A stretch of 64,000 bases of DNA from assembly GCF_029223255.1 (NCBI RefSeq), contig NZ_JARHUC010000001.1, positions 310,001 to 374,000 of the forward strand, given 5' to 3'. Below, piece after piece: positions 44,145 to 59,702 of the stretch. The notes beneath the pieces are model-generated. The model had not been told where the DNA came from. It made no database searches and saw only the letters and a list, made by a program, of their open reading frames with translations. The first letter of the stretch is position 1. Each line of letters opens with the position of its first letter. The position numbers were made by a program, and so were the translations under genes. The stretch is from Albimonas marina (lineage in GTDB: Bacteria; Pseudomonadota; Alphaproteobacteria; Rhodobacterales; Rhodobacteraceae).

Positions 44145-45713
44145 TCAGCCCGCGACCGCGTCCCAGTCCAGCCCATGCCGCGCGAGGTACTTGCGCAGCC
44201 GATCCGCATCGTTGGTCGAGCTGCGCCGCGCGCGGGAGGCCGCGAACAGCCGCCGGCCGGCCTCGCTCAGGCTGGGCGCGCCGCGGCAGGCGCGGATCAC
44301 CTCGGCGAGCTGCACACGGTCGAACGGGTCGATCTCCGCCGCCGCCTCGCCCAGCACATCCGCCAGCAGGCGCAGGTCCGCATCCGGCGCGGCGCGGGCC
44401 CAGGTCGCGCGGAGGCGGGCGATCTCCTCCTCGACCAGCGCGCGGGTGACTCGGCCCCGCGGGGCCAGCGTCGACAGCCGCAGGACCGAGGCGCCGAAGT
44501 CCCGGAAGTTCCCCGGCCAGGGCGTGCCGGGATCGCGGGCGAAGCGCAGGAACGTGGCCCGCGCATCGGCGTTGAAGCCCACGCGCGCGCCCAGCGCCCG
44601 CTCGACCCGCGCAAGCTCGAAGGCGAGGTTCGGCTCGATGTCGTCGCGGCGGTCCCGCAGCGGCGGCAGGGTGAAGCGCCACAGGTCCAGCCGCGCGAGC
44701 AGGTCCGGTCGGAACCGGCCCTCGGCCACCAGCGAGGCGAGGTCGCGGTTCGCCCCCGCGATGACATGGAAGCGGCTGGTCGCGGGCTGGTCGGCGCCCA
44801 GCGGATAGAAGCTCCCCGTCTCGATCGCGTGCAGCAGCACCGCCTGCTCCCGCGGGCCCAGCTCGTCGATCTCGTCGAGGAAAAGCACCCCGCCGTTCGC
44901 CTCGCGCAGCAGGCCGTTGCGCTCGCCGGCCTGCGCGCCGCCCTGCCCGCGGCGCTGGCCGAACAGGGTCGAAAGCGCCGTCGCCTCCGACAGGGTCGCG
45001 CAGTTGATCTGCACGAACTTCCCCTTCACGCGCCGCCGCTCCCGCTTCAGCTCGTAGATCCGCCGGGCGAGCTCGGACTTGCCCGTCCCCGTCTCCCCCA
45101 GCAGCAGGATCGGCGCGTCGGAGCCGGTGGCGGCCAGCTCGATGCGGTCGATCAGCAGGTTGAAGGCGGGGTCGCGCGTCTCGATCCCGCCCTTGAGCTG
45201 GTCGGAATGCTCCCGCGCCAGCAGGTCGAACCGTTGCTGGAGTGCGTCGTAGCGGCTGAGGTCGAGGTCGATCACGGCCATCGAGCCCTCGGTCTCGGTC
45301 GCGCGCGGGGGCGAGGTCTGGATCAGGCGGGCGGGGACGTGCCGGCTCTCGGTCAGCAGGAACCAGCAGATCTGGGCGACATGGGTGCCGGTGGTGAGGT
45401 GGACGAAATAGCTCTCCCGATCCTCGTCGAAGCCGTAGCCGCGCGCGAAGTCGAACAGCTTCCCGTAGACCTCCTGGAAGTCCCAGGGATCGGCGAGGTC
45501 GAGACGCTGGAGCAGAACCTCGGTCTCGGGGGAGGCCGCCTCGATCTCGGCCTTCACCTGCACGGCGAGGCGGTTGTGGCGGTGGTCGTGCAGCAGTTCG
45601 ATGCGGTCGACCTCGAACCCCTCCTGCGCGATCAGGCTCGGCGTCGGGCGCCAGCGCCGCTTCTTGCCGGCGTCGAGCTGCGTGCCGAGGAACCCGAGGA
45701 CCACGTTGCGCAT
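44145..45713 (-). CDS. rtcR: RtcR-type CARF/AAA+ transcription activator
   Basis: RtcR controls the RNA-repair operon. The 522-residue protein has an N-terminal CARF-type ligand domain (MRNVVLGFLGTQLDAGKKRR, VHLTTGTHVAQICWFLLTES), which in relatives senses 2',3'-cyclic-phosphate-ended RNA or nucleotides. A AAA+ domain follows, with Walker A LLGETGTGKSELARRI and Walker B GGVLFLDEIDELG. A C-terminal region with a helix-turn-helix-like segment ends the protein. The usual GAFTGA loop that contacts sigma-54 is replaced by G-Q-G-G-A-Q at the aligned position (DNA near 44930-44945). It is divergent from rsr with a 178-bp gap. Confidence 0.92.
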   Translation of the reverse strand: MRNVVLGFLGTQLDAGKKRRWRPTPSLIAQEGFEVDRIELLHDHRHNRLAVQVKAEIEAASPETEVLLQRLDLADPWDFQEVYGKLFDFARGYGFDEDRESYFVHLTTGTHVAQICWFLLTESRHVPARLIQTSPPRATETEGSMAVIDLDLSRYDALQQRFDLLAREHSDQLKGGIETRDPAFNLLIDRIELAATGSDAPILLLGETGTGKSELARRIYELKRERRRVKGKFVQINCATLSEATALSTLFGQRRGQGGAQAGERNGLLREANGGVLFLDEIDELGPREQAVLLHAIETGSFYPLGADQPATSRFHVIAGANRDLASLVAEGRFRPDLLARLDLWRFTLPPLRDRRDDIEPNLAFELARVERALGARVGFNADARATFLRFARDPGTPWPGNFRDFGASVLRLSTLAPRGRVTRALVEEEIARLRATWARAAPDADLRLLADVLGEAAAEIDPFDRVQLAEVIRACRGAPSLSEAGRRLFAASRARRSSTNDADRLRKYLARHGLDWDAVAG

Positions 45714-45891
45714 GACGCCTTATCCCATTCGATAAATCCCTATCTCTCCGGATCGTAATCGCGCGCCGTCGAATCGGCAACGCTGCGAAATCCGTCTAAA
45801 AATCAACAGCATGTTCGGATTCCCGATTTTCCTCGGTCGCCCCGCCGCCCCATGCGACACCTCTCCCCGTCAACAGAAGGACGAGAGAGAA
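45714..45891. promoter_or_regulatory. rtcR-rsr divergent regulatory region
   Basis: The 178-bp gap is AT-richer than most of the window, especially 45720-45840. A GCCG-N6-CGGC dyad lies near 45765-45778. I looked for a sigma-54 -24/-12 element (GG-N10-GC with good flanks) on the plus strand and did not find a convincing one. The rsr start is preceded by AAGGACGAGAGAGAA. Confidence 0.5.
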
Positions 45892-47460
45892 ATGGCGAAC
45901 AGATCCGTGTTTGCCTCGACCAGAGGCCGGCTGTCCCCGAAGGCGGACGCCACGACCGCCCACGGGACGCCGGCCTATTCCTACGCCGCGCCCCACGCCC
46001 TGGCCCAGATGGCCGTGACCGGCAGCTTCGGGGGCGCCTACTACGCCAAGCCCGAGATGCAGCTCGACCGCGTGCTGTCGCTGGCTGGAGCCGTGGAGCC
46101 CGCGTTCCTGGCCCGCACGGCGATCCACGCGCGCCGGGTCGGGCGGATGAAGGACATGCCCGCGGTGCTGCTGGCGGTGCTGGCCTCCCGCGATCCGGCG
46201 CTGTTCCGCGCGGTCTTCGGGCGGGTGGTCGCCAACGGGCGGATGCTGCGCACGTTCGTGCAGATCCTCCGCTCGGGGCGCACCGGGCGGAAGTCGCTGG
46301 GCTCGGCCCCCAAGGCGATGGTGGCGGGGTGGCTGACCTCGGCCTCCGACCGCGCCCTGCTGGAGGCCGCGATCGGGACCTCGCCCTCGCTGAAGGACGT
46401 GATCCGCATGGTCCACCCCAAGCCCGACAGCCGGGAGCGGGAGGCGCTGTTCGCCTGGATCCTGGGCCGCCCGTGCGAGGCCGCGCGCCTGCCGCAGGCG
46501 GTGCGCGACTGGATCGCCTTCCAGGAGGCCGGGCCGCAGGCCTGGACCGGGCCGCTGCCGGAGGTGCCGTTCCAGATGCTGACCCAGGCGCCGCTGACGC
46601 AGGCGCAGTGGGCCGGGATCGCGCGGAACGGTTCCTGGCAGATGCTGCGCCAGGGGCTGAACATGCTGCTGCGCCACGGCGCCTTCGAGGATCCGGAGAC
46701 GGTCGCGGCCGTCGCCGCCCGCCTCTCAGACCCCGAGCGGATCGAGGCGGCGGGGGCCCTGCCCTACCAACTGCTCGCCGCGATCGGCCATGTCGATCCG
46801 CGGATGCCGGGCGAGATCGTCGAGGCGCTGCACCTCGCGATGGATCACGCCGTCCGCCGGGCGCCTGCGCTGGAGGGCGCGGTCGTGGTCTGCCCCGACG
46901 TCTCGGCCTCGATGCTCGGGTCGGTGACGGGGGTGCGCAAGGGCGCGACCTCGGCGATGCGCCACGTGGACTTGGCGGGCCTGGTCGCGGCGGCGATCCT
47001 GCGGCGCAATCCGCGGGCCGAGGTTCTGCCCTTCGCCCGGGCGCTCCGCCCGATCCGGCTGGAGCCGCGGGACACGGTCGCCAGCAACGCGCGGCGGCTG
47101 GCGGAGATCGCGGGCGGCGGCACCGATTGCTCGGCCCCGCTGCGGGCGCTGAACGCCCGCGGGGCGCGGCCGGACCTGGTGGTGATGATCTCGGACAACC
47201 AGTCCTGGATCGACGCCGCCCACGCCGGGCGCGGCACGGCGACGATGACCGAATGGCTGGCGCTGCGCGCCCGCCATCCCTCGGCGAAGCTCGTCTGCAT
47301 CGACATCGCCCCCTACGGGACGACGCAGGCGGCGGAGGTCGAGGGGGTGCTGAACGTCGGCGGCTTCTCCGACGCGGTGTTCGACCAGATCGGACGCTTC
47401 GCCCGGGGCGAGATGCACCCCGACCGCTGGATGGCCGAGATCGAGGCCATCGCGCTCTGA
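45892..47460 (+). CDS. rsr: Ro60-like TROVE-domain RNA-binding protein Rsr
   Basis: Rsr is the bacterial Ro60 orthologue, a ring-shaped protein that binds Y RNAs and misfolded RNAs and can direct exonucleases. The ATG at 45892 gives 522 residues. A HEAT-like ring domain (residues 30-345) includes TPAYSYAAPHALAQMAVTGSF and an NMLLRHGAF segment. A vWA domain follows with a complete metal site: D-V-S-A-S, a later GGTDCS, and ISDNQSW. It is divergent from rtcR and directly upstream of two Y-RNA-like genes and rtcB, matching the known rsr-Y RNA-rtcB arrangement of enteric bacteria. Confidence 0.93.
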   Translation: MANRSVFASTRGRLSPKADATTAHGTPAYSYAAPHALAQMAVTGSFGGAYYAKPEMQLDRVLSLAGAVEPAFLARTAIHARRVGRMKDMPAVLLAVLASRDPALFRAVFGRVVANGRMLRTFVQILRSGRTGRKSLGSAPKAMVAGWLTSASDRALLEAAIGTSPSLKDVIRMVHPKPDSREREALFAWILGRPCEAARLPQAVRDWIAFQEAGPQAWTGPLPEVPFQMLTQAPLTQAQWAGIARNGSWQMLRQGLNMLLRHGAFEDPETVAAVAARLSDPERIEAAGALPYQLLAAIGHVDPRMPGEIVEALHLAMDHAVRRAPALEGAVVVCPDVSASMLGSVTGVRKGATSAMRHVDLAGLVAAAILRRNPRAEVLPFARALRPIRLEPRDTVASNARRLAEIAGGGTDCSAPLRALNARGARPDLVVMISDNQSWIDAAHAGRGTATMTEWLALRARHPSAKLVCIDIAPYGTTQAAEVEGVLNVGGFSDAVFDQIGRFARGEMHPDRWMAEIEAIAL

Positions 47461-47511: not shown

Positions 47512-47656
47512 GGCCTCGGCGAATGCCGCTGGAACTACAGTCATCACCTCGCGGGTTGCGGGTTCGAATCCCGCCGCGACGGCCCCCGGTCCCGACCGGG
47601 GCCTGCGCGTAGCTCAACGGTAGAGCAGCGGTTCCAGCACCCTCGTCGCCGAGGCC
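47512..47656 (+). ncRNA. yrlA: Y RNA (YrlA-like) with permuted tRNA mimic
   Basis: Ends pair in an 11-bp helix (47512-47522 with 47646-47656). Then come an internal loop (5' ATGCC, 3' ACCCTCG), an 8-bp helix (47528-47535 with 47631-47638), and a tRNA-like head. The head has a T-arm at 47558-47574 (GCGGG-TTCGAAT-CCCGC), a stem formed by 47575-47590 and 47595-47609 closed by a CCCG loop, then TA and a D-arm at 47612-47626 (GCTC-AACGGTA-GAGC). In a tRNA the D-arm comes first; here the order is T-arm, acceptor, D-arm, a circular permutation closed at the acceptor. Bacterial YrlA-type Y RNAs are known tRNA mimics that bind Rsr. Exact transcript ends are unknown. Confidence 0.85.
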
Positions 47657-47665
47657 TTTTCGACC

Positions 47666-47780
47666 GCCGGGAGGAATGCCTGCGGGACTACATTGGACGC
47701 CGGTCCGCCGGCTGCCGGTTCGAGCCCGGCTACGCCCCGTTTCGGGGCGGGAGAGTCCCGCACCCTCTTGTCCTCCCGGC
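47666..47780 (+). ncRNA. second Y RNA-like gene, reduced tRNA mimic
   Basis: The fold repeats that of the upstream RNA with different helix sequences: a 10-bp outer helix (47666-47675 with 47771-47780), the same 5' loop ATGCC with CCCTC on the 3' side, a 9-bp inner helix (47681-47689 with 47754-47762), a T-arm at 47714-47730 (GCCGG-TTCGAGC-CCGGC), and a 7-bp acceptor-like stem CGCCCCG/CGGGGCG (47733-47749) closed by TTT. No D-arm is present: only GGAG joins the acceptor stem to the inner helix. Conserved loops with covarying helices argue for a functional RNA bound by the same protein. It ends 37 bp before rtcB. Confidence 0.8.
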
Positions 47781-47817: not shown

Positions 47818-49236
47818 ATGACCGTCTCGACGGCCGCCCCGATCGCCGGCCCCATCACCGGAGAGGACCTGAAGGCCTGGGGCCACCGCCCCGGCCCGCA
47901 GTTCCCGATGCTGCTTGCCAGGGCCGAGAGCCTGCAGGCCGAGGGGCTCGACGCCGAGGCCCTGCGCGCCGCGCTGGAGGCCGAGAAGCCCACGCCCCCC
48001 GTGAAGATCGAGCCCCGCGCCCCCGGCGCGCTCCCCTTCCACGAGCTGCTGGAGCCGTGCGACCCGGACGAGATGGACAACCTCGCCAAGGTCCGCGAGA
48101 CGATGGTCGAGCTGATGCGCACCCCCACCCTCGAGGCCGGCGCGGTGATGCCCGACGCCTGCCCCGCGGGGCCGGTCGGCACGATCCCCGTGGGCGGCGT
48201 GGCCGCGGCGCGCAACGCGATCCATCCGGGCATGCACTCGGCCGACATCTGCTGCTCGCTGATGCTGACCGACCTCGGTCACGCGGACCCGGCGGCGGTG
48301 CTGGACGCAGCCCAGGCGATCACCCATTTCGGGCCCGGCGGACGGCCGCAGGGGCGGCGCTTCACCGTCTCGCTGAAGCTGCTGGACGCGTTCCGGGCGA
48401 ACCCGTTCCTCGACCACCCCAAGGCGATCGAGACGGCGCAGGCGCACATGGGCACGCAGGGCGACGGGAACCACTTCCTGTTCGTCGGCCGCTCCCGCGC
48501 CACGGGGCGCACGGCGATGGTCACCCACCACGGCTCCCGCGGGCCGGGGGCGCTGCTCTACAAGCACGGGATGAGCGTGGCCGAGCGGTTCCGCAAGCGG
48601 CTCTCGCCCGGCACGGCGAAGCAGAACGCCTGGATCCCGGCGGACACGCCGGAGGGCGAGGCCTACTGGGAGGCGTTGCAGCTGATCCGCAAGTGGACCA
48701 AGGCCAACCACAACGCCCTCCACCAGGCGGTGGTCGAGGCGGTGCGGGCCGAGCCGGGGGAGCGGTACTGGAACGAGCACAACTTCGTCTTCCGGCGGAA
48801 CGGGCTCTACCTGCACGGCAAGGGGGCGACGCCGGCCTGGGACGGCTACGCCGCCGACGCCACGGGGCGCACGCTGATCCCGCTGAACATGGCGGAGCCG
48901 GTGCTGGTGGTCCGCGGGCGCGACGACGGCCGGGGCCTGGGCTTCAGCCCGCACGGCGCCGGGCGCAACTTCTCGCGCTCCGAGCATCGTCGGCGGATGG
49001 CGGGGCGCACGGCCGAGGCGTTGCTGGCGGCCGAGACGCAGGGCCTCGACATCCGCTTCCACGCAGGCGGGGTCGACGTGTCGGAGCTGCCGTCGAGCTA
49101 CAAGTCGGCCGCGACCGTGACCGCCCAGATCGAGCGCTTCGGCCTGGCGGAGATCGAGGACTTCATCGATCCCGTCGGCTGCCTGATGGCCGGCGACCTG
49201 CCCCCGTTCCGCGGCGGCCGCAAGACCCGGCGCTGA
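47818..49236 (+). CDS. rtcB: RNA-splicing ligase RtcB
   Basis: RtcB joins RNA 2',3'-cyclic phosphate or 3'-phosphate ends to 5'-OH ends with GTP and Mn2+. The 472-residue protein shows the metal-site motif HSADICCSLM (Cys ligand), HMGTQGDGNHFLFVG, MVTHHGSRGPG, NHNALH, and the guanylation motif SPHGAGRNFSR with the nucleotidyl His. It is somewhat longer than the 400-residue E. coli enzyme because of an N-terminal extension of about 60-70 residues. An AAAGGAATGGAAAG site precedes the ATG. No rtcA cyclase follows; the next gene is convergent. Confidence 0.95.
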   Translation: MTVSTAAPIAGPITGEDLKAWGHRPGPQFPMLLARAESLQAEGLDAEALRAALEAEKPTPPVKIEPRAPGALPFHELLEPCDPDEMDNLAKVRETMVELMRTPTLEAGAVMPDACPAGPVGTIPVGGVAAARNAIHPGMHSADICCSLMLTDLGHADPAAVLDAAQAITHFGPGGRPQGRRFTVSLKLLDAFRANPFLDHPKAIETAQAHMGTQGDGNHFLFVGRSRATGRTAMVTHHGSRGPGALLYKHGMSVAERFRKRLSPGTAKQNAWIPADTPEGEAYWEALQLIRKWTKANHNALHQAVVEAVRAEPGERYWNEHNFVFRRNGLYLHGKGATPAWDGYAADATGRTLIPLNMAEPVLVVRGRDDGRGLGFSPHGAGRNFSRSEHRRRMAGRTAEALLAAETQGLDIRFHAGGVDVSELPSSYKSAATVTAQIERFGLAEIEDFIDPVGCLMAGDLPPFRGGRKTRR

Positions 49237-49315: not shown

Positions 49316-52300
49316 TCAGAAGCGGACGTTCACGCTCAGCCGGCCGGCTTGGCCGGCGTAGCCGTCGCCCGCCGCGCCCTCGTAGCTGACGCCCACGTCG
49401 GCGCGGTCCCCGACCTCCAGCGCGACCCCGAGGCCGAGGCGACCCACCGCCTGCGCCTGCGCCGCGCCGTTGGCGAAGCCGGCGATGCCGGTGGCGTCGC
49501 GGGCGAAGCGGACGTCGGCGTCGTAGGAGTCGAGGGTCGAGAAGCTGACCCCCGCCCGCGCCCAGGCCCGCAGGCCCAGCGGATCGCCGCCGCTCTCGCC
49601 CAGCTCCCGCCGCAGGCCCGCCTCCAGCGAGGGGGTCACGACGAAGGCCGTGGCGGCGGCGTCCGAGACGCGCAGCGCCTGCCGCCCCGCGCCGGTCTCG
49701 GTGAAGCCCTGCGAGGAGACGTGGATCAGGTCGAGGTCGAGCGAGGGCTTCAGCCACGCGCCCCCCTCCAGCGCCTGCGTCCAGGCCGCCCGCGCCCGCA
49801 GCCCGAGGCTGAGCGCCCCGTGCTCCGACCGCGCCTGGCCCGGCGCGAGCGGCCCGGCGAAGCGGCGGGAGTCGAACTCCGACCACCCCGCCGTGGCGGC
49901 GCCGCTCAGCGACAGCGCCCCCCTCTCCCGGGTCACCGCGGCGCCGAGGAAGCCGGTGGTCCCCTCGACCGAGCCGCCGCCGCCCTGGCGGGCGAGGTTC
50001 AGCGTCTCCCACCCGAGGGCGCCCGAGACCAGCCAGCCCGGCGCGACCTCCAGCGTCGTCGCGAAGCCCGCGGTCCAGGCGTCGCCCTCGTAGCCGGCCG
50101 CGGCCCCGCTGGCGTCCTGGTCCAGGTGGCGGCCCGAGCCCAGCAGGGTCAGGTAGCCGCCCAGGCCCCCGGTCTCCCAGTCGACGCTGCGCCCGCCGGT
50201 CTCTCCGCAGCCGAGCAGGGTGTCGAAGCGGTCGCGGGTCAGCTCGAAGGTCGCGGCCTCGCCCGCCATCGTGGCGCCCAGCGTGGCGCCCGACAGGGCC
50301 GAGCCCAGCGCCCCGCCCTGCGCCGCCAGCTCCAGCTTGCCGAACAGGCGGGCGAAGTCGCGGTCCCCGGTCAGGAACAGCCGCTCGAGGTAGCGGGCGG
50401 CCTCGGCCTCCTGCCCGCCGAGGCCCGAGGCGAGCTCGACCCCCGTCGCGCGGAGCGTCACGCCCCCGTTCTCGATGCGCTGCTCGAAGCGGAAGATCGC
50501 GCCGCCCAGCCGGTCGAAGGCGCCAAAGATGTCGCCTCCGACCTCCATCACCCGGTGCTCCGCGCCCCCGATCAGGGCCCGCGGCGCGAGGCTGAGCGCC
50601 CCGTCGAGCGTCGCGTCGCCCGCCACGCGGATCACGTCGCCCCGGCCCTTCAGGGGCTCGGCGTCGACCGCCAGCGTCCCGCTCGACCCCTGCTCGAAAT
50701 CGCCGGCGATGACGAGATCGGCATGGTCCCCGGGATCCCCCGCGACCAGCAGGCCGCGGTTCAGCACGTCGGCGTCGTAGCGCTCGGCCCCCCGCAGCAC
50801 GCCGCCGCGGCGGTTGACCAGGGTGATCGCCGGCGGCGGCGCCGGCCGGACCGCCAGAACCTCGGGCCCCGCGGCGAGGGACGCCGCCGCCCCGCCCGGC
50901 GTCCTGACGCCCCGCGGACCGAAGGCAGAGCCGTCGACCCCGCCCTCGACCCGTCCCTTCTTGAAGGAGACGTTTCCGTCGATGACGCCCGCGTTGCGGA
51001 TCGAGAGATGCGAGTCGTAGGGGTCGTTTCGGGTGATGTAGCGGATCGCCTCGCCCGACAGCGCCGTGATCGTTGCGCCCTGGAAGACGGTGATCGCGTT
51101 CTCCGCCCCGCCCCCATGCATCAGCAGGCCGTAGGCCGAGGGGCCCGAGCCGCCCTGCACGTAGCCGTTGATGAAGGCGTCGATCCAGACGTCCTGCATC
51201 CCCCGGCCGTTGGCGGCGCCCAGGCTCTGCAGGAACACCGCGGTGCTGTTGCGGCCGTTGGCGATCACCGCCGCCTCGGGCTGCATGATGAAGTCGATCG
51301 CGCCGCCGCGGCCGACGTCGCCGTTGGTGTTCAGCCCGGCGAAGGGGCCCTGGGCGTCGCCGCCCAGGCCCCCGCCGCCGCCCAGCGACTGGGCGATGAC
51401 GCCGTAGGCGCCGTCGCCGTAGGTGACCAGGGGCCGGTCCACGTTGACGCCGACATAGCCGGCGTCGCCCTCGCCGTTCATCTGCTCGATGGTGCTGGGG
51501 GCGTAGCCGACCGACCGGCTGTAGATCAGGGTCAGCCCGTCGGCGAGCGAGACGTCGCCGCCGATGCCGCCGCCGCCGGCGATGGACTGGGCCACGATGC
51601 CGTGGGCGCCCTCGCCATAGGTGGTCGCGCAGGTGTCGAGCGCAGTCAGCGAGCAGCCCTGCGGACCGCCGAGCGTGACGTCGACCGAGCCCGCGCCCGC
51701 CGTGCCGCGGTAGCCCTCGAGCCCGCCGAGCCGCACCTCCGAGACGCTCCCCGAGCCGGCCGAGGCGATGCCCCCGCCGCCCGAGATCGACTGGGCGACG
51801 ATGCCGATGGCCCGGTCGCCGACGGTCACGAGCCGACCGTAGAAGCCGACGTTCACGTCGTCGGCCCGGTCGGCGCCCTCGCCGCCCCGGCCGCCCAGCT
51901 GCAGCGTCACGTTCTTCTGCGCGCCGCCGATCCGCGCCACGCCGCCGCCGCCCGCGATGGACTGCGCCGCCAGCGCGTGGGCGTCGTCGCCCCGGGTGAC
52001 CACCCGGGCGAGGGAGCTGGTCTCGGCCCCGGTGGGACCTTCGCCGGCGTATTCCCGCAGGATCTGCGCCTTGCCCGCGCCGCGGTCGTCGTCGCCGGCG
52101 CTGGTCGCGCCCAGGGTCAGGACCGCGCCGTCGGCGGAGTGGCCGAAGCTCGCCGCCCCGCCGCCGCCGCCGATCGACTGCACCAGCACCCCGTAGGCGC
52201 CCGCGCCCTCGGTGTCGATCGAGCCGCCGCCCACGCCGCGCCCGGTGTGGGTCAGCGACGCCTTGCCGGCCCGGCCGCCGCCCTGGGTCTGGCCCAGGGT

Positions 52301-55300
52301 CAGCGACGCGCGCGGCCCGGCGCCTGCGCCGTCGCCGATGTCGGCGAGGCCGCCGCCGCCGGCGATGGACTGCACCACCAGCCCGTCGGCGTAGTCGCCC
52401 GAGGTGGCGATCCCGCCGCCGAAGGTCATCGCCACGTCGGCGTTCCAGCCGCCGGTGGCGCCGGTCGCGCCCAGCTGCACGGGCAGGACGCCGCCGCTCC
52501 AGCCGTCGCGGCCGTTAGGCGCCGAGGCCTGGCCGCCACCGCCCGAGATCGACTGCACCACCACGCCGCGCGCGGCGTCGCCCGCGGTCTGCACCCGCGT
52601 GGCCCCGGCCGGGTCCACGCCCATCTCGACCGCGACCGCGCCCCCGTAGGAGCTGCCGCCGCCCGAGGCGCCCAGCGTGACGCGCGACAGCCACGGGGCC
52701 GGCGTCAGCGCCAGCCCCCCGCCGCCGCCCACCGACTGCACCAGCGCCGCGGTCGACCCGGCGCCGCCGGTGACCAGGGTCGCCTCGCCGATGTCGAGGG
52801 TCAGGTCGCCCGGATCGGCGATCGCGTCGCCGTTGCGGTTCGCCTGGCCGGTGCCGTTGGAGCCGCCGAGACGCATCTCGACCACCCCCTCGCGGTTCGA
52901 GACCGCGAGCGGCTGCGAGGTTCCCAGCGCCCCGACGCCGCCGCCGCCCACCACGTTCTGCACCAGCAGGCCGATCGCGCCGTCGCCGCCGGTCTGGATC
53001 AGCGCGTCGTCGCCCATCGTGGCGCTCAGCGCCGCGGACCCGAAGGTCCCGCCGTAGTCGCCGCCGACCAGCAGGCCGGTCCGGCCGGAACCGGTGGTTG
53101 CGCGCACGGTCGTCGAGCCGACGGCCGCGATGCCGCCGCCGCCCTGGATCTCCTGGATCACCGCGCCGTTGGCGCCCCAGCCATTGGTGAAGAACGTGCT
53201 GCCCGAGAGCGTCACGTCCAGCCCCCCGGCCGCCGCGGTCTGGTCCACGCCCTGGACCTTCTGGCGGTCCGCCGCCCCGGCCGAGGTCGCGCCCGAGGCG
53301 CCGACCCGGATCGAGACCGAGGCCATGGAGTCCGAGGTCGGATCGTGGCTCAGCCCCGCGACCCCGCCGCCGCCGGAGATCGACTGCACGATCGCCGCCT
53401 CGGCATGGTCGCCCCAGGTGCGGATCCAGCCGCCCAGCTCGGTCACGACATGCAGGTTCTGCATCCCGATCTCGGGCGAGGACTGGCCGAGGTCGATGCG
53501 CATCTTGTAGGCGTTCGGGTCGGGCGTGTTGGCCGCCGGCTGCGGCGGGATCTTCTTGCCGTTCGCCTCGTCGAGCGTCCAGGACGCGCCGCCGGCGGAG
53601 CCGATCACGCCGCCCCCGCCGCCGATCGCCTGCACCACCACCGCGTCGGCGTCGGCGCCGTAGGTCTGGATGTCGCCGTCGGCCACGAAGCTCGCGGCCT
53701 CGGGGACCTCGTCGGGCGAGACGTTGGCGCCCAGGATCGAGATCTCGCGGGTGACCGTGGTGGACTCGCCCGCGCTCGCGCGCTCCAGCAGCTCGAAGCC
53801 GTTGGCGACGCCGCCGCCGGCCTGCACGCTCTGCGCCACGATCCCCCGCGCCCCCACGCCCAGCGTGGTGATGAAGGAGCCGTCGTCCAGGGAGACGTCG
53901 AACCGGTCGGCGCCGCCGCAGGGGATGTTCGGCAGGCAGCCGGAGGCCGAGCCCATCGTCACCACGCCGGAGGAGAGCGAGGTGGTCTGCGCCCGGTCGA
54001 TCTCGGCCGGGGTCAGCACGACCACGCCGCCGCCGACGCCGACCGACTGCACGATCGCCGCATAGCCGGCGTCGCCGCGGGTGGTGACGTCGTCCACGAG
54101 ATGCATCGTCGCGCCGCCCGCGTGCCCGGCCCCGTAGGTCTCGACGCCCGAGCCCAGCGTCAGCTCGAACAGCAGGTCCAGCGCGGCCTGCTCCGCGTTC
54201 TCGGGATCGTAGCGGCGCAGGGCCGAGCCGTAGGCGAGCGTCGACATCGTGGTGCCGCCGCCGCCCGCCACCGACTGCACGATCACGCCGGGGGAGGCGT
54301 AGCCGTTGGCGTTGATCTTGGTGCCGTGCTCGAGCCGCGCCGCGACCGGGCCCGCGTCGCCCTGGCCGCCGTCGGCGCCGTGACGCAGCAGGCGCGCGCC
54401 CTCGATGCCCGAGACGCCGCCGCCGCCGCCGACCGACTGCACGATCAGGCCCGGGCTGCGCACGCCGTTGGTGACGATGCGGAAGGCGCCCTGCGCCGCG
54501 GCCTCGCCGCCGTTCCCGCCGCGCCCGCCGTCGCCGCCGGCGATGAAGTCGAGATGCGCGCCCCGGAACAGGGCGTTGAAGTTGTCGACGAAGATCGTGC
54601 GGTCGTCGACGTCGAGATGCTTCAGCGACAGCTCGGCCGCGGTCAGCGGCGCCGTGCCGATGCCGCCCATGCCGCCGCCGCCGCCCACCGACTGCACCGT
54701 CAGGCCGAAGGCCGCGGCGCCGTTGGTGGTGATGCGCCCGCCCTCGCCGTTCGCCTCGGCGCGGGCGGCGTTCGCGCCCTCGCCGCCCTCGCCGGAGCCG
54801 CCGATGCCCAGGCGCACGGCCGCCGCAGGCAGCGCCTCGTCGCCGCGGTCGTAGAGCGAGGCGACGTCGAGCTCCTCGAACGCCGCGTCCTCGTTGGTCT
54901 GGGGCTCGCCGTCCTCCTCGGGGGCCTCGGTCTCGGCGTCGATCCCGAGGTTGCCGACCAGGCGGGAGGCGCTGCCGCCCATGCCGCCGCCGCCGCCGAT
55001 GGACTGCAGCAACACGCCATGCGCGCGGTCGCCGTAGGTCAGCACCTCGGCGTCCTCGCCCAGGCGGAAGCCGACCTGGCCGCCCTTGCCGCCCGCGCCG
55101 CCGGTGCCGCCGATGCGCAGGGACAGGTCGAGGAAGCCGATGGAGTCGTGGGGCACCGCGCCCCCGCCCACGCCGCCGCCGCCGCCGATGGACTGCAGCA
55201 CCACGCCGTCGGCGTAGTCGCCATGGGTGACCACCGCGCCGTCGAGCGTGGGCATCATGAAGCGCGTCGCGTCGCCGGACTCCACCTCGGTGGCCGCCAC

Positions 55301-58300
55301 CGCGAAGTCGCCGCCTGCGCCGCCCTCGCCGCCGCGGCCGCCCACGTTGACGTTCAGCGCCCAGGGCCGCTCGATCTGCTCCTTGATCTCCTGCAGCTCG
55401 AGGCCGAAGTCGATCACGTTCTTCTCGCCGTCCTCCTCGGCGCCGCCGCCGCCGAAGTTTCCGCCCAGGCCGCCGCCGCCGCCGACGCTCTGCAGCAGCA
55501 CGCCGTCGCCGTCGGCGCCGAAGGTCTCGATCACGCCGGCCAGGTTCGCCTCGGCGATGCGTCCGCCTTCGCCGCCGCCGCCGCCGGTCATGCCCACGCC
55601 CACCGTCAGGCGGGGCGCCTTGAGCTTGCCGTTCAGCTTCTGCAGCACCGCGTCCGTCAGCTTCGAGGTGAACGAGACCGACGCGGTCTGCGAGGCGCCG
55701 CCGCCGCCGCCCACGCCGTGCATCACCATCCCGCGCGCGCCCTCGCCATGGGTGCGCAGGTAGGTCTCGGCGCCCAGGTCGGCCGTCATGCGCCCGGCGT
55801 CGCTGGCGCCGTCGCCGCCGTAGCCGCCGATGTTGATCGCCATCTTCACGCCGACGCCTTCGCCGAACTTCTTGGTGCCCGCGCCCGCGACGCCGCCGTT
55901 GCCGCCGCCCTTGGCGATGCTCTGCGCCAGGATCGCGTTCGAGTTCGGACCCCAGGTCTCGATCGCCGTCGCGCCTTCCAGGCTCAGGTCGACGTCGCCG
56001 CCGGTGCCGCCGGCGCCGCCGTTGCCGCCCATCGAGATCGAGACGGAGGTGTTGACCTTCAGCGACTTGACGTTCGGCTCCTCCTCGCCCGGGATCGCCT
56101 CCTTCAGCCGGTCGATGAACAGCGAGGCCGCCGCCATCGAGGAGCCGTCGCCCCCGTCGCCGCCGCCGCCGCCGACGGACTGGGCCAGGATCCCGTGGCC
56201 GCCGTCGCCCCGCGTGGCGATGCTCACGTCCGTGAGGTCGAGCGAGACCGCCTTGCCCTCGCCGCCCTTGCCGCCCTTGCCGCCGACCGCCGCCGCGCCG
56301 GCGATGGCGACCTGCAGGTCGAAGGCCGGGATCGGCAGGTCGATCGCATAGGCCAGCGCGTCGGCCGAGCCGCCGAGGCCGCCGCCCCCGCCCACCGACT
56401 GCGCCACCAGGCCGTGGTTGTTCGACACCCCGTCCTTCAGCGCGTCGCCGCCCGTGGCGATGGAGACGTCGTCGAGGCTGATCTTCACCTCCCCGGCGTC
56501 GCCGCCTTCGCCGCCCTTGCCGCCGACCGCCACCGCGCTGCCGAAGCCCACGCTGACGTCGGTGGAGGTGGCCGCGCCGCCGGCGCCGCCCCCGCGCCCG
56601 ATGGAATGCGCGACCAGGCCGCGGGCGTGGCTGCCCCAGGTGGTCACGTCCAGCGCCTCGGCCGTGATGTCGACCTCGCCGCCCTCGCCCCCGGTCGAGC
56701 CGCCGCCGGCGATGGCCACCGAGGTCAGCGCGAAGACCCCGAAGGAGAGCGAGCGCGCGTCGCCCCCGGTGCCGCCGCCGCCGCCGATCGACTGCACCAG
56801 CGCGCCATGGGCGTTGTCGCCCTGGGTGAAGATGCTGTTGCGCAGGCCCTCGTCGCCCGCCTCGACCTCGAGCGTCACCTTGCCGCCGTCGCCGGTCGTT
56901 CCGCCGTCGCCGCCCACTGCCACGTTGGGCACGCGGGAGGCGATGGCGAACACGTCGCCGCCGTTGCCGCCGCCGCCGCCGATGGAATGCGCCAGCAGGC
57001 CGAAGGAATACTTGCCCCGGGTCTGGATGTTGGTTCCGGAGTGGAGCGTCGCGGTCACCGCGCCGCCCGCGCCGCCGCCGCCGCCCTGGCCGCCGACGGT
57101 GGCGACGCCCGCCGCCCCGCCCACGTCGATCACGTCGCCGCCGCCGCCGCCGATGGACTGCAGCACCGCGCCCGCCGAGGCGTCGGCCCTGGTCAGGATG
57201 CGGCCGCCGTCGCTCTCGAGCACGACCTCCCCGCCCGGGGTGCCGTCGCCGCCGGCGCCGGCCACCACCACGCCCTCGTCCGTGTCCGCGGTGACCCCGG
57301 CGCCGTCGGTGGTCAGCGACCCGCCGCCGCCCGCGATCGACTGCATCAGCAGCCCGTGGGAGCCGTAGCCGTCGGTGCGCACGTCGAAGCGGCCCGCGGC
57401 GCTGACCTTGCCCGCGGTCCCGCTGTTGCCGCCCTTGGTCTCGCCGGCGCTGAACAGCGAATACTCCGAGTCGGCCGACCCGCCGCCCCCCGCCAGCGAC
57501 TGCATCACGATGCCGATCGAACGGCCGTACTGGGTCGAGATCACCGGCGCGACGCCGTCCTCGCCCGTCGGCAGGACCAGGGTCACGTCGCCGGCATTGC
57601 CGCCGCGACCCGCCTCCGAGCCGTGGAAGTCGACCAGCCCGCCCGGCGTGCGCACGCCGCCGCCCGAGCCGCCCTTGGCGTGGATCATCACCCCCGCCGA
57701 GTTCGCCCCCTGGGTGACGATCGAGGCGCCCGAGCCCAGCACGACCTTCAGGTCGCCCGTGTCGCCGCCGCGCCCGCCGTTGGAGTTGGTGGAGTTGCCG
57801 AGCCCCCCCAGCGCCCCCTGGGCGTAGAGCGCCACGCCCATGATGTTGTTGCCGGCGACGTCGACCTGGGCCCCGTCGGCGAGCTTGATGCGCGAGGTCC
57901 CCAGGGCCCCGGTCTCCGGGTCTATGCCCGCGTCGCCGCCCTGGCCGCCGTCGGCCCGCGAGATCCCGTCCTTCGACGCGCCCCCGGCCGCGCCGTAGGT
58001 GGCGGCCAGGATGCCGGCGGACTGGTAGATGAAATAGGGGATCGCCTCGACCTGGCAGACCGCGCCTTCCAGGCAGGCGCGGTCGATCACCTCGTCCTCG
58101 GGCGTCGCGGCCGGGGCGGAGTCGCGGGTGCGCAGCTCGATGCGCCCGTCATGAGCAACGTCGACCCGGCCCGAGTCGCCGCCGTCGCCGCCGTCCACGC
58201 CGATCGACTTGGAGGTGATGCCGGCGTAGCCCGCCTGGCTCGCCGCGAAGATTCCGTAGGCGTGGCCGGTCCTGTCGACATAGGTGCGCAGCAGGATGTC

Positions 58301-59272
58301 GCCCACGCTGTCGACGGACACCGCGCCGGCGTCGCCGCCCGAGGAGGTGGGATCGGCGCCGTGGCCGCTGGCGCTCTGCGCATAGATGCCGGCCGCGAGA
58401 TCGCTCAGCGGATCCGGGCCGACCTTGCAGTCGAGCGAGAGGACGTCGCACATCCGGATGCTTCCGGTGTTGGTCACCGTCACCTGGCCGGCGTCGCCGG
58501 CGCTGCCGCCCCGGGGCTCGCCGTCGGTGGTGTCGCGCTCGCCGCCCGAGCCGGAGGTGCTGGAGGCGAGGATCGCCACCGCCCCGACCCGCGGCGTCCC
58601 GAAGGCCTGCGCGGCCGAGGCCGGCTCGAAGTCGATCCTCCCGGCGTTGGTGACGTCGACCGTGCCCCCGTCGCCCCCGTCGCCCCCGTCGCCGCCGCCG
58701 AAGGTCTGGTCGCGCGCGTCGCGTCCCTCGCCGCCGACCGAGGCGGCGTAGAGGCCGAAGACCAGGCCGCCGCGGTCCCACAGGCCGGCGGCGGAATCGT
58801 CGCCGCCATGGGCCGCGAAGTTCAGGTCTCTCACCGAGATGCTCGACTGGTTGTCGAGGGTGATCTCGCCGCCCGCGCCGCTCGCGCCCGCGTCGTCCTT
58901 GTCGTCCGCCCCCTGTCCGCCGCGCAGCCGCACGGCCAGGCCTGCGAACTGCCCGCGGTCCGGGATCCAGCCCAGCGTGTTGTAGTTGGTCAGGGTGTAG
59001 GAGCCCGCTGGATCGGCGTCCTGGTCGTCGTCGCCGGTCGCGTTCGGACCGGTGAACAGGACCTGCGCGCCGGCGACGCCGGCGTCCGCGGGAATGGTGC
59101 AGGATTCGGGCCCCACCCGCCCCGGCGGGCAATCGGCCAGCTGCGCGGCGGCCCGCGTCGCGACGAGCGCCCCGCTCATCCCCAGCGCCGCGGCGCAGCA
59201 GGACCCGAGCAGCACGGCGCGCAGCCGCGGACGCGCGCCGACGGCGCGCGTGTCGATGATCTGAAAGGACAT
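49316..59272 (-). CDS. giant Gly-rich autotransporter with beta-barrel domain
   Basis: The start is set at ATG 59272 (after GGGGAAGCCGTC), giving 3318 residues. An extended signal peptide (about residues 15-43, RAVLLGSCCAAALGMSGALV then ATRAAAQ) leads into a passenger of about 2950 residues made of many degenerate repeats around a VLVQSIGGGGGxGG core, each usually followed by polar beta-strand segments. The last 300 or so residues (from LGCGETGGRSVDWE) form a type V autotransporter barrel ending in VNVRF with the terminal Phe. Several passenger loops carry close Cys pairs (SLDCKV, ACLEGAVC, GCLPNIPCGG, TCATT). It is likely a surface fibre or adhesin; target unknown. Confidence 0.92.
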   Translation of the reverse strand: MSFQIIDTRAVGARPRLRAVLLGSCCAAALGMSGALVATRAAAQLADCPPGRVGPESCTIPADAGVAGAQVLFTGPNATGDDDQDADPAGSYTLTNYNTLGWIPDRGQFAGLAVRLRGGQGADDKDDAGASGAGGEITLDNQSSISVRDLNFAAHGGDDSAAGLWDRGGLVFGLYAASVGGEGRDARDQTFGGGDGGDGGDGGTVDVTNAGRIDFEPASAAQAFGTPRVGAVAILASSTSGSGGERDTTDGEPRGGSAGDAGQVTVTNTGSIRMCDVLSLDCKVGPDPLSDLAAGIYAQSASGHGADPTSSGGDAGAVSVDSVGDILLRTYVDRTGHAYGIFAASQAGYAGITSKSIGVDGGDGGDSGRVDVAHDGRIELRTRDSAPAATPEDEVIDRACLEGAVCQVEAIPYFIYQSAGILAATYGAAGGASKDGISRADGGQGGDAGIDPETGALGTSRIKLADGAQVDVAGNNIMGVALYAQGALGGLGNSTNSNGGRGGDTGDLKVVLGSGASIVTQGANSAGVMIHAKGGSGGGVRTPGGLVDFHGSEAGRGGNAGDVTLVLPTGEDGVAPVISTQYGRSIGIVMQSLAGGGGSADSEYSLFSAGETKGGNSGTAGKVSAAGRFDVRTDGYGSHGLLMQSIAGGGGSLTTDGAGVTADTDEGVVVAGAGGDGTPGGEVVLESDGGRILTRADASAGAVLQSIGGGGGDVIDVGGAAGVATVGGQGGGGGAGGAVTATLHSGTNIQTRGKYSFGLLAHSIGGGGGNGGDVFAIASRVPNVAVGGDGGTTGDGGKVTLEVEAGDEGLRNSIFTQGDNAHGALVQSIGGGGGTGGDARSLSFGVFALTSVAIAGGGSTGGEGGEVDITAEALDVTTWGSHARGLVAHSIGRGGGAGGAATSTDVSVGFGSAVAVGGKGGEGGDAGEVKISLDDVSIATGGDALKDGVSNNHGLVAQSVGGGGGLGGSADALAYAIDLPIPAFDLQVAIAGAAAVGGKGGKGGEGKAVSLDLTDVSIATRGDGGHGILAQSVGGGGGDGGDGSSMAAASLFIDRLKEAIPGEEEPNVKSLKVNTSVSISMGGNGGAGGTGGDVDLSLEGATAIETWGPNSNAILAQSIAKGGGNGGVAGAGTKKFGEGVGVKMAINIGGYGGDGASDAGRMTADLGAETYLRTHGEGARGMVMHGVGGGGGASQTASVSFTSKLTDAVLQKLNGKLKAPRLTVGVGMTGGGGGEGGRIAEANLAGVIETFGADGDGVLLQSVGGGGGLGGNFGGGGAEEDGEKNVIDFGLELQEIKEQIERPWALNVNVGGRGGEGGAGGDFAVAATEVESGDATRFMMPTLDGAVVTHGDYADGVVLQSIGGGGGVGGGAVPHDSIGFLDLSLRIGGTGGAGGKGGQVGFRLGEDAEVLTYGDRAHGVLLQSIGGGGGMGGSASRLVGNLGIDAETEAPEEDGEPQTNEDAAFEELDVASLYDRGDEALPAAAVRLGIGGSGEGGEGANAARAEANGEGGRITTNGAAAFGLTVQSVGGGGGMGGIGTAPLTAAELSLKHLDVDDRTIFVDNFNALFRGAHLDFIAGGDGGRGGNGGEAAAQGAFRIVTNGVRSPGLIVQSVGGGGGVSGIEGARLLRHGADGGQGDAGPVAARLEHGTKINANGYASPGVIVQSVAGGGGTTMSTLAYGSALRRYDPENAEQAALDLLFELTLGSGVETYGAGHAGGATMHLVDDVTTRGDAGYAAIVQSVGVGGGVVVLTPAEIDRAQTTSLSSGVVTMGSASGCLPNIPCGGADRFDVSLDDGSFITTLGVGARGIVAQSVQAGGGVANGFELLERASAGESTTVTREISILGANVSPDEVPEAASFVADGDIQTYGADADAVVVQAIGGGGGVIGSAGGASWTLDEANGKKIPPQPAANTPDPNAYKMRIDLGQSSPEIGMQNLHVVTELGGWIRTWGDHAEAAIVQSISGGGGVAGLSHDPTSDSMASVSIRVGASGATSAGAADRQKVQGVDQTAAAGGLDVTLSGSTFFTNGWGANGAVIQEIQGGGGIAAVGSTTVRATTGSGRTGLLVGGDYGGTFGSAALSATMGDDALIQTGGDGAIGLLVQNVVGGGGVGALGTSQPLAVSNREGVVEMRLGGSNGTGQANRNGDAIADPGDLTLDIGEATLVTGGAGSTAALVQSVGGGGGLALTPAPWLSRVTLGASGGGSSYGGAVAVEMGVDPAGATRVQTAGDAARGVVVQSISGGGGQASAPNGRDGWSGGVLPVQLGATGATGGWNADVAMTFGGGIATSGDYADGLVVQSIAGGGGLADIGDGAGAGPRASLTLGQTQGGGRAGKASLTHTGRGVGGGSIDTEGAGAYGVLVQSIGGGGGAASFGHSADGAVLTLGATSAGDDDRGAGKAQILREYAGEGPTGAETSSLARVVTRGDDAHALAAQSIAGGGGVARIGGAQKNVTLQLGGRGGEGADRADDVNVGFYGRLVTVGDRAIGIVAQSISGGGGIASAGSGSVSEVRLGGLEGYRGTAGAGSVDVTLGGPQGCSLTALDTCATTYGEGAHGIVAQSIAGGGGIGGDVSLADGLTLIYSRSVGYAPSTIEQMNGEGDAGYVGVNVDRPLVTYGDGAYGVIAQSLGGGGGLGGDAQGPFAGLNTNGDVGRGGAIDFIMQPEAAVIANGRNSTAVFLQSLGAANGRGMQDVWIDAFINGYVQGGSGPSAYGLLMHGGGAENAITVFQGATITALSGEAIRYITRNDPYDSHLSIRNAGVIDGNVSFKKGRVEGGVDGSAFGPRGVRTPGGAAASLAAGPEVLAVRPAPPPAITLVNRRGGVLRGAERYDADVLNRGLLVAGDPGDHADLVIAGDFEQGSSGTLAVDAEPLKGRGDVIRVAGDATLDGALSLAPRALIGGAEHRVMEVGGDIFGAFDRLGGAIFRFEQRIENGGVTLRATGVELASGLGGQEAEAARYLERLFLTGDRDFARLFGKLELAAQGGALGSALSGATLGATMAGEAATFELTRDRFDTLLGCGETGGRSVDWETGGLGGYLTLLGSGRHLDQDASGAAAGYEGDAWTAGFATTLEVAPGWLVSGALGWETLNLARQGGGGSVEGTTGFLGAAVTRERGALSLSGAATAGWSEFDSRRFAGPLAPGQARSEHGALSLGLRARAAWTQALEGGAWLKPSLDLDLIHVSSQGFTETGAGRQALRVSDAAATAFVVTPSLEAGLRRELGESGGDPLGLRAWARAGVSFSTLDSYDADVRFARDATGIAGFANGAAQAQAVGRLGLGVALEVGDRADVGVSYEGAAGDGYAGQAGRLSVNVRF

Positions 59273-59702
59273 GACGGCTTCCCCAAGCACCCAATCCACC
59301 CGACGGACCCCGCCGAGCCGCCGCGTGCGCCATCTCCCACCAGACATCGGGACGCGGTTCACGTTACGTTTATCGAGGTGAATTGGTTTGGCAAGCATAT
59401 GAAATGGAATGGCATACCAGAATCCACGCCGGCCCTTCCCGGCTTGGCCGGCGTCGGAGTCCGCGCTGCGCGAGAATGCGCGCCGCGGTCCGCCGAAGGT
59501 TCCTGCACGAAACCGAATCGCCGCCGCCGAGCTCGCTCCGGCGCTTCGCTCCGCCTTGGATTCGAGGGTTGCGCGCCGGCCTCGGCCCGGATCTCCGTAT
59601 TGCGTCCGGCCTCTCCGATACGATGCGCGGCCTGATCTCCCGGGCGCTCCGACGCCGGCGTCCCAGCCCGGGCGACGCGATGCGGCGCCGCCCGGGCGAC
59701 AT
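59273..59702. other. autotransporter upstream region
   Basis: This 430-bp gap has no gene I can support. On the minus strand TTGCCA (59394-59389) and TAAACG (59372-59367) are spaced by 16 bp, about 95 bp before the autotransporter start. This is a weak promoter candidate in an AT-richer stretch (59355-59415). The rest, to the SDR stop at 59703, is GC-rich without clear features. Confidence 0.45.

Follow-up and report, generated by a model that had tools for sequence, protein, structure and literature searches.

A probable YrlA-type Y RNA carrying a permuted tRNA mimic between rsr and rtcB of Albimonas marina, and a proposed second permutation in its relatives

The rsr-rtcB locus and the anatomy of its first Y RNA

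The window analyzed here, the whole 64,000-nt stretch of A. marina DNA, contains an RNA-repair locus in which rtcR lies divergently upstream and is followed by rsr, two Y RNA elements (Y1 and Y2) and rtcB:

44145-45713, minus strand: rtcR, RNA-repair transcriptional activator with CARF-like and sigma54-interaction domains (NF038308, 696.9 bits, cut-off 650; PF06956)
45889-47460, plus strand: rsr, Ro60-related protein (PF25045 vWA_Ro60 above cut-off; 57-64% identity to Rsr of 14 relatives)
47512-47656, plus strand: Y1, YrlA-type Y RNA (RF02553, 67.5 bits, E 2.1e-15 over 47516-47655; fold z -4.1)
47666-47780, plus strand: Y2, second Y RNA (RF02553, 37 bits, E 1.4e-6; fold z -4.2)
47818-49236, plus strand: rtcB, RNA ligase (PF01139, E 3e-35)

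The rsr product reached only 49.7 bits against NF041674, far under the cut-off of 900. Its start is likely at 45889 (MANKS), because further upstream the homology to relatives is broken by an in-frame stop in one of them (L038). The order of rsr, Y RNAs and rtcB is the same as in the Salmonella rsr-yrlBA-rtcBA operon (PMC7790460; PMC9879122). The genome lacks rtcA and encodes TruB, DusA, DusB and PNPase, and a simple consensus scan upstream of rsr gave no convincing sigma54 promoter. Immediately past rtcB, the minus strand holds an open frame of 3360 aa (49316-59398) with glycine-rich repeats and a C-terminal domain that looks autotransporter-like.

Y1 is composed of the following parts, all on the plus strand:

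47512-47522/47646-47656: outer stem, 11 bp, enclosing the inner stem
47528-47535/47631-47638: inner Rsr-side stem, perfect 8 bp, in the place of the anticodon arm
47557: T standing for tRNA position 48 and partner of 47617 in the Levitt pair (A15-T48; covarying in 90 modules)
47558-47574: T-arm GCGGG/TTCGAAT/CCCGC, corresponding to tRNA 49-65 (sequence, fold)
47564: U55 equivalent in the T-loop TTCGAAT, predicted TruB site
47575-47609: acceptor-like hairpin with loop CCCG at 47591-47594 (fold; acceptor pairs covary in relatives)
47610-47611: TA linker, corresponding to tRNA 8-9 (U8 A9) (sequence)
47612-47626: D-arm GCTC-AACGGTA-GAGC (sequence, fold)
47612-47615 and 47623-47626: D-stem strands (sequence)
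47616-47622: D-loop, A14 A15 C G18 G19 U20 A21 in tRNA numbering
47617 and 47619-47620: position 15 and the G18 G19 equivalents
47621: U20 equivalent in the D-loop, predicted DusA site

The preliminary description of this DNA had proposed a circularly permuted tRNA mimic, with a T-arm, an acceptor-like stem closed by a CCCG loop, a TA linker and a D-arm in this order, and with the Rsr-stem side replacing the anticodon arm. On re-reading the sequence its coordinates for these parts proved exact to the base, and the arm order is upheld by the sequence and by minimum free energy (MFE) folds. The linkers are tRNA-like, with 0 nt between T-arm and acceptor hairpin and exactly 2 nt (TA) between the latter and the D-arm. 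The acceptor strands (47575-47590 and 47595-47609) form a helix of 4+3+7 bp with a bulged A at 47579 and a C.C mismatch at 47583/47602. The D3 strand continues into the inner Rsr-side stem, and it is this 8-bp stem that stands where the anticodon arm would be. All helices are present in the MFE fold of 47513-47661 (-75.8 kcal/mol; 0 of 200 shuffles equal), and the tRNA-like module folded alone (z -2.3) keeps the T-arm, acceptor and D-arm hairpins. A normal tRNA order on an alternative fold was also looked for; it yielded one sub-threshold match to the tRNA model RF00005 (25.5 bits, cut-off 29), which joins the D-arm of Y1 to the T-arm of Y2, and ARAGORN called no tRNA.

Conservation of the module and family assignment

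Relatives were drawn from the same-family set and from a scan of genome contigs with an alignment of 15 Rsr sequences (333 matches, 80 kept), giving 80 named contigs, mostly from Rhodobacterales; a scan of genome contigs with a single Rsr sequence gave no matches. Modules with T-arm, acceptor hairpin, TA and D-arm were found in 64 of the 81 loci (rsr-rtcB gaps), and 90 of them are distinct. Because this count partly presupposes pairing at acceptor pairs one to three and at three D pairs, the unconditioned tests are those of acceptor pairs A4 and A5 and of the Levitt pair. A4 is paired in 88 of the 90 modules (41 by shuffling) and A5 in 86 (45 by shuffling), and the acceptor pairs differ between modules while pairing is kept. 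The Levitt pair 15-48, which played no part in module finding, is G-C in 79 modules, A-U in nine, G-U in one and G-G in one (Fisher p about 1.6e-11, over related sequences that are not independent). The A15-U48 modules come from eight loci of different genera, and Y1 has this form, as opposed to G15-C48 in most relatives. The covarying 15-48 pair lends indirect support to the tRNA-like core proposed for Y1. It can be lost and is not universal, since an enteric YrlA (L131 800-918) has A15 with C48. The acceptor hairpin ranges from 13 to 40 nt across relatives.

A stricter descriptor, covering both the Y1 order and the D-loop-opened order described below, gave 60 matches in 101 kb of rsr-rtcB gaps, against one match in 745 kb of plus-strand flanking DNA and none on the minus strand. 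The single outside match lies within a tRNA gene cluster and joins neighbouring tRNA genes. For the Y1 order the count of 90 modules is preferred, because the strict descriptor demands an unbroken 5-bp acceptor start and so under-counts.

Some mimics in the YrlA register (L060 6568-6699, L085, L090, L102; L072 4804-4933) have a D-arm resembling that of tRNA-Leu (GCGGAAUUGGUAGACGC) or of tRNA-Glu (GUCUACUGGUUAGGAC). These D-arm sequences suggest that different tRNAs may have been captured repeatedly.

At the gathering threshold Rfam had no match anywhere in the window, and E-value mode was needed to recover those of Y1 and Y2. Y1 aligns end to end with YrlA RF02553 (model 1-114), but its score is 1.5 bits under the gathering cut-off of 69. 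Several same-family relatives reach 71-84 bits at the same operon position, so the name YrlA-type rests for us on its homology, synteny and anatomy and not on the threshold. It has the YrlA order of T-arm, closed acceptor stem, TA and D-arm. On the Rsr side the model alignment places AAUGC, GGAACUAC and CU.GUC around two nested stems. It lies beside rsr in an RtcR-linked rtcB operon, as do its counterparts in relatives. Salmonella YrlA (RF02553, PDB 6CU1) shares with it the arm order, the Rsr stem replacing the anticodon arm and the location between rsr and rtcB. Points against this reading of Y1 are the score and the acceptor helix, which is short in the RF02553 model whereas in Y1 it is longer and interrupted (14 bp in a 35-nt hairpin), and long also relative to most relatives. 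The A15 with C48 of the enteric YrlA, the missing rtcA and the lack of a convincing sigma54 site also count against it. The Y RNA of Deinococcus radiodurans (RF01053) likewise has an Rsr-binding stem and a T-loop hairpin, yet Y1 is not a member of that family (17.8 bits, E 1.5, cut-off 80). With canonical tRNA Y1 has in common the T-, D- and acceptor arms, U8, A14, A21, G18G19 and the Levitt pair; it differs in its permuted order, sealed acceptor, and lack of an anticodon arm and CCA end.

According to PMC8394870, the tRNA-like domain of YrlA resembles the D, T and acceptor arms and binds PNPase, Rsr being bound by the basal stem; the same paper, citing Chen et al. 2014, reports that TruB and DusA introduce pseudouridine and dihydrouridine. 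Binding of YrlA to PNPase is also reported in PMC9879122, and PMC11472068 describes how the Y RNA in PDB 6CU1 (Wang et al. 2018) superposes on tRNAs by circular permutation. As both the permutation and the TruB/DusA modification have been published, the core idea of a YrlA-type permuted tRNA mimic is already known, although the preliminary description arrived at it from the sequence; Y1 is a further member of the described family and the permutation idea itself is not new. The earlier suggestion that TruB or Dus enzymes may act on Y1 agrees with the modification described in PMC8394870, and genes for TruB, DusA and DusB are in the genome.

A second permutation register, Y2 and other array units

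In relatives, several Y RNA-like units commonly share one rsr-rtcB gap, as judged by automatic calls of which some are merged or long. One class of these units, here class II, has another order of parts: CUACA of the Rsr stem, G18G19 with the D3 strand, a short capped hairpin in the anticodon place, a variable region, the T-arm, a closed acceptor hairpin, U8-N9, the D5 strand and closure of the Rsr stem. Read from sequence, class II would be the tRNA ring cut in the D-loop, and the YrlA register the same ring cut in the anticodon arm. Type IIa carries GGUAGAGC ... UAGCUCAG and a tRNA-like AGGUC variable region (type-I-like); type IIb carries GGUAGACGC ... UGGCGGAA and a variable arm that is usually long and tRNA-Leu-like. 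Examples of these D-loop-opened units, with weak or no Rfam match, are:

L105 6802-6926
L112 6698-6820
L079 6960-7098
L081 6779-6922
and others

The strict descriptor found 26 distinct class II modules, all inside rsr-rtcB gaps. For type IIa, an alignment of 12 sequences has 97.5% of its cells paired (83% after shuffling, 36-50% after sliding by 1-3 columns), with 25 pairs changed on both sides. For type IIb, with 15 sequences, pairing is 100% in the D-, T- and acceptor helices, whereas the anticodon-like and variable helices align poorly and are only 40-59% paired. The Levitt pair of the 26 modules is G-C in 12, A-U in 12, U-A in one and U-C in one. IIa has a weak YrlA match in Rfam (29 bits), and the IIb of L079 has none. 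Arrays with class II units occur in Rhodobacterales, other alphaproteobacteria and Burkholderiales, and plasmids of Rhizobium and Methylosinus have sequences readable by eye as IIa. The D-loop-opened register has no description in the literature searched, which did not extend to the main primary articles (Chen 2014; Wang 2018; Sim & Wolin 2018).

The second Y RNA of the window is arranged as follows (plus strand):

47666-47675/47771-47780: outer stem
47681-47689/47754-47762: inner stem
47695-47700: GGACGC
47714-47730: T-arm
47733-47749: GC hairpin

The Rsr-binding scaffold of Y2, GGGAGGAAUGCCUGCGGGACUACA, is also found on a class IIb RNA of L081, and it is followed by UUGGACGC, a hairpin, the T-arm, two nucleotides and the GC hairpin; sequence and fold give neither a D-arm nor a D5 strand. 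YrlB (RF02565) is the second Y RNA of this operon in enterics, but Y2 is unmatched by RF02565 and differs in carrying a T-arm and a GC-rich hairpin.

The enteric rsr-rtc operon is usually described with two Y RNAs. An enteric fragment shows an apparent third one between yrlA and rtcB (L131 924-1037; L132 1077-1190), and the L131 unit, with 31.7 bits to YrlA, has a plan similar to Y2, with GGUAACGC. This DNA is a low-coverage fragment deposited as phage, and as E. coli genomes contain nothing that matches it, the species it comes from is uncertain. We infer that Y2 and this third unit may be class II mimics minus the D5 strand.

Other units are found in the arrays. By ARAGORN, 43 of the 81 loci carry ordinary tRNA genes in their rsr-rtcB gaps, 65 in all, and the window has none. 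Nearly all are Asn(GTT), Gln(TTG), Lys(TTT/CTT) or Pro (for example L079 6783-6858, L060 6946-7284 and L087 7368-7721), and they might serve as backups when stress leads to tRNA cleavage. Another conserved group of Y RNAs has a T-loop-like hairpin and GCGCCCAGACGGCAAACGC (L051 6823-6978, L060 7042-7200, L069 7249-7405 and others); the consensus fold of 12 of its sequences has 12 pairs with compensatory change. There are also very short Y RNAs of about 76-90 nt with the scaffold GGGGGAAUGCCCGUGGGAGUACAUCGC and no tRNA-like arm (L053 6907-6985, L060 7648-7727, L079 6875-6953 and others).

We consider it probable that Y RNAs mimic tRNA in two permutations on one Rsr handle, the YrlA register and the D-loop-opened register of IIa and IIb, with Y2 as a degenerate form. 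The second register is the more interesting result; it belongs to the relatives, and the window has at best a degenerate instance of it, Y2.

Proposed role of Y1 and significance

Y1 is very probably a YrlA-family Y RNA, a permuted tRNA mimic on an Rsr stem, and likely a tether for an effector (PNPase) under RtcR control. If it is transcribed, its 5' and 3' ends would pair into the Rsr-binding stem that replaces the anticodon arm, and the hairpin loop would seal the acceptor ends, giving a circularly permuted tRNA ring that is joined at the acceptor and cut in the anticodon arm, and in which the T- and D-loops may come together as they do in the elbow of a tRNA. Going by the analogy of YrlA and of the Deinococcus Y RNA, the effector that this module would most likely dock is PNPase, and PNPase tethered to Rsr could then carry out decay of structured RNA. 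TruB should modify Y1 at 47564 and DusA at 47621. Cleaved tRNA ends, sensed by RtcR, should be the signal that turns on rsr-Y1-Y2-rtcB.

It has to be considered that Y1 might act mainly as a decoy or competitor for stress-induced tRNA-cutting nucleases or other tRNA-binding enzymes, and not as a PNPase tether. The operon is reportedly responsive to cleaved tRNAs, Hughes et al. 2020 (PMC7790460) raised a competitive-inhibitor idea for YrlA, and the arrays of relatives combine different tRNA mimics with real tRNA genes (Asn, Gln, Lys, Pro). However, the mimics have no anticodon loop, which is where anticodon nucleases cut, and YrlA is reported to bind PNPase (PMC9879122), so that we regard this role as unlikely.

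Permuted tRNA genes, whose transcript is circularized and then cut into a working tRNA, occur in some algae and archaea. The arm order of Y1 would fit such a gene and the RNA ligase RtcB is encoded next door, but where the anticodon arm should be there is a perfect 8-bp Rsr-side stem, the acceptor hairpin varies in length among relatives and bears no sign of conserved processing ends, and ARAGORN made no tRNA call; we rejected this reading as very improbable. Chance hairpins or tRNA-gene debris, hairpins being common in this region because it is GC rich, have a negligible probability and were rejected, as the comparative data already contradict them: the RF02553 match (E 2e-15) and fold (z -4.1) are strong, order, synteny and covariation are conserved in 64 loci, and descriptor matches are strongly confined to rsr-rtcB gaps.

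For the YrlA-type mimic, the covariation, which includes a tertiary pair, extends support for YrlA's permuted tRNA fold well beyond enterics, and the mapping of Y1 predicts exact modification sites. The two-register result outweighs the window element in importance. If Y RNAs indeed mimic several tRNA types in two registers, often beside real tRNA genes, each mimic can be examined directly for the tRNA-binding protein that it captures, and one can ask whether the array provides Rsr with exchangeable effector handles during RNA repair.
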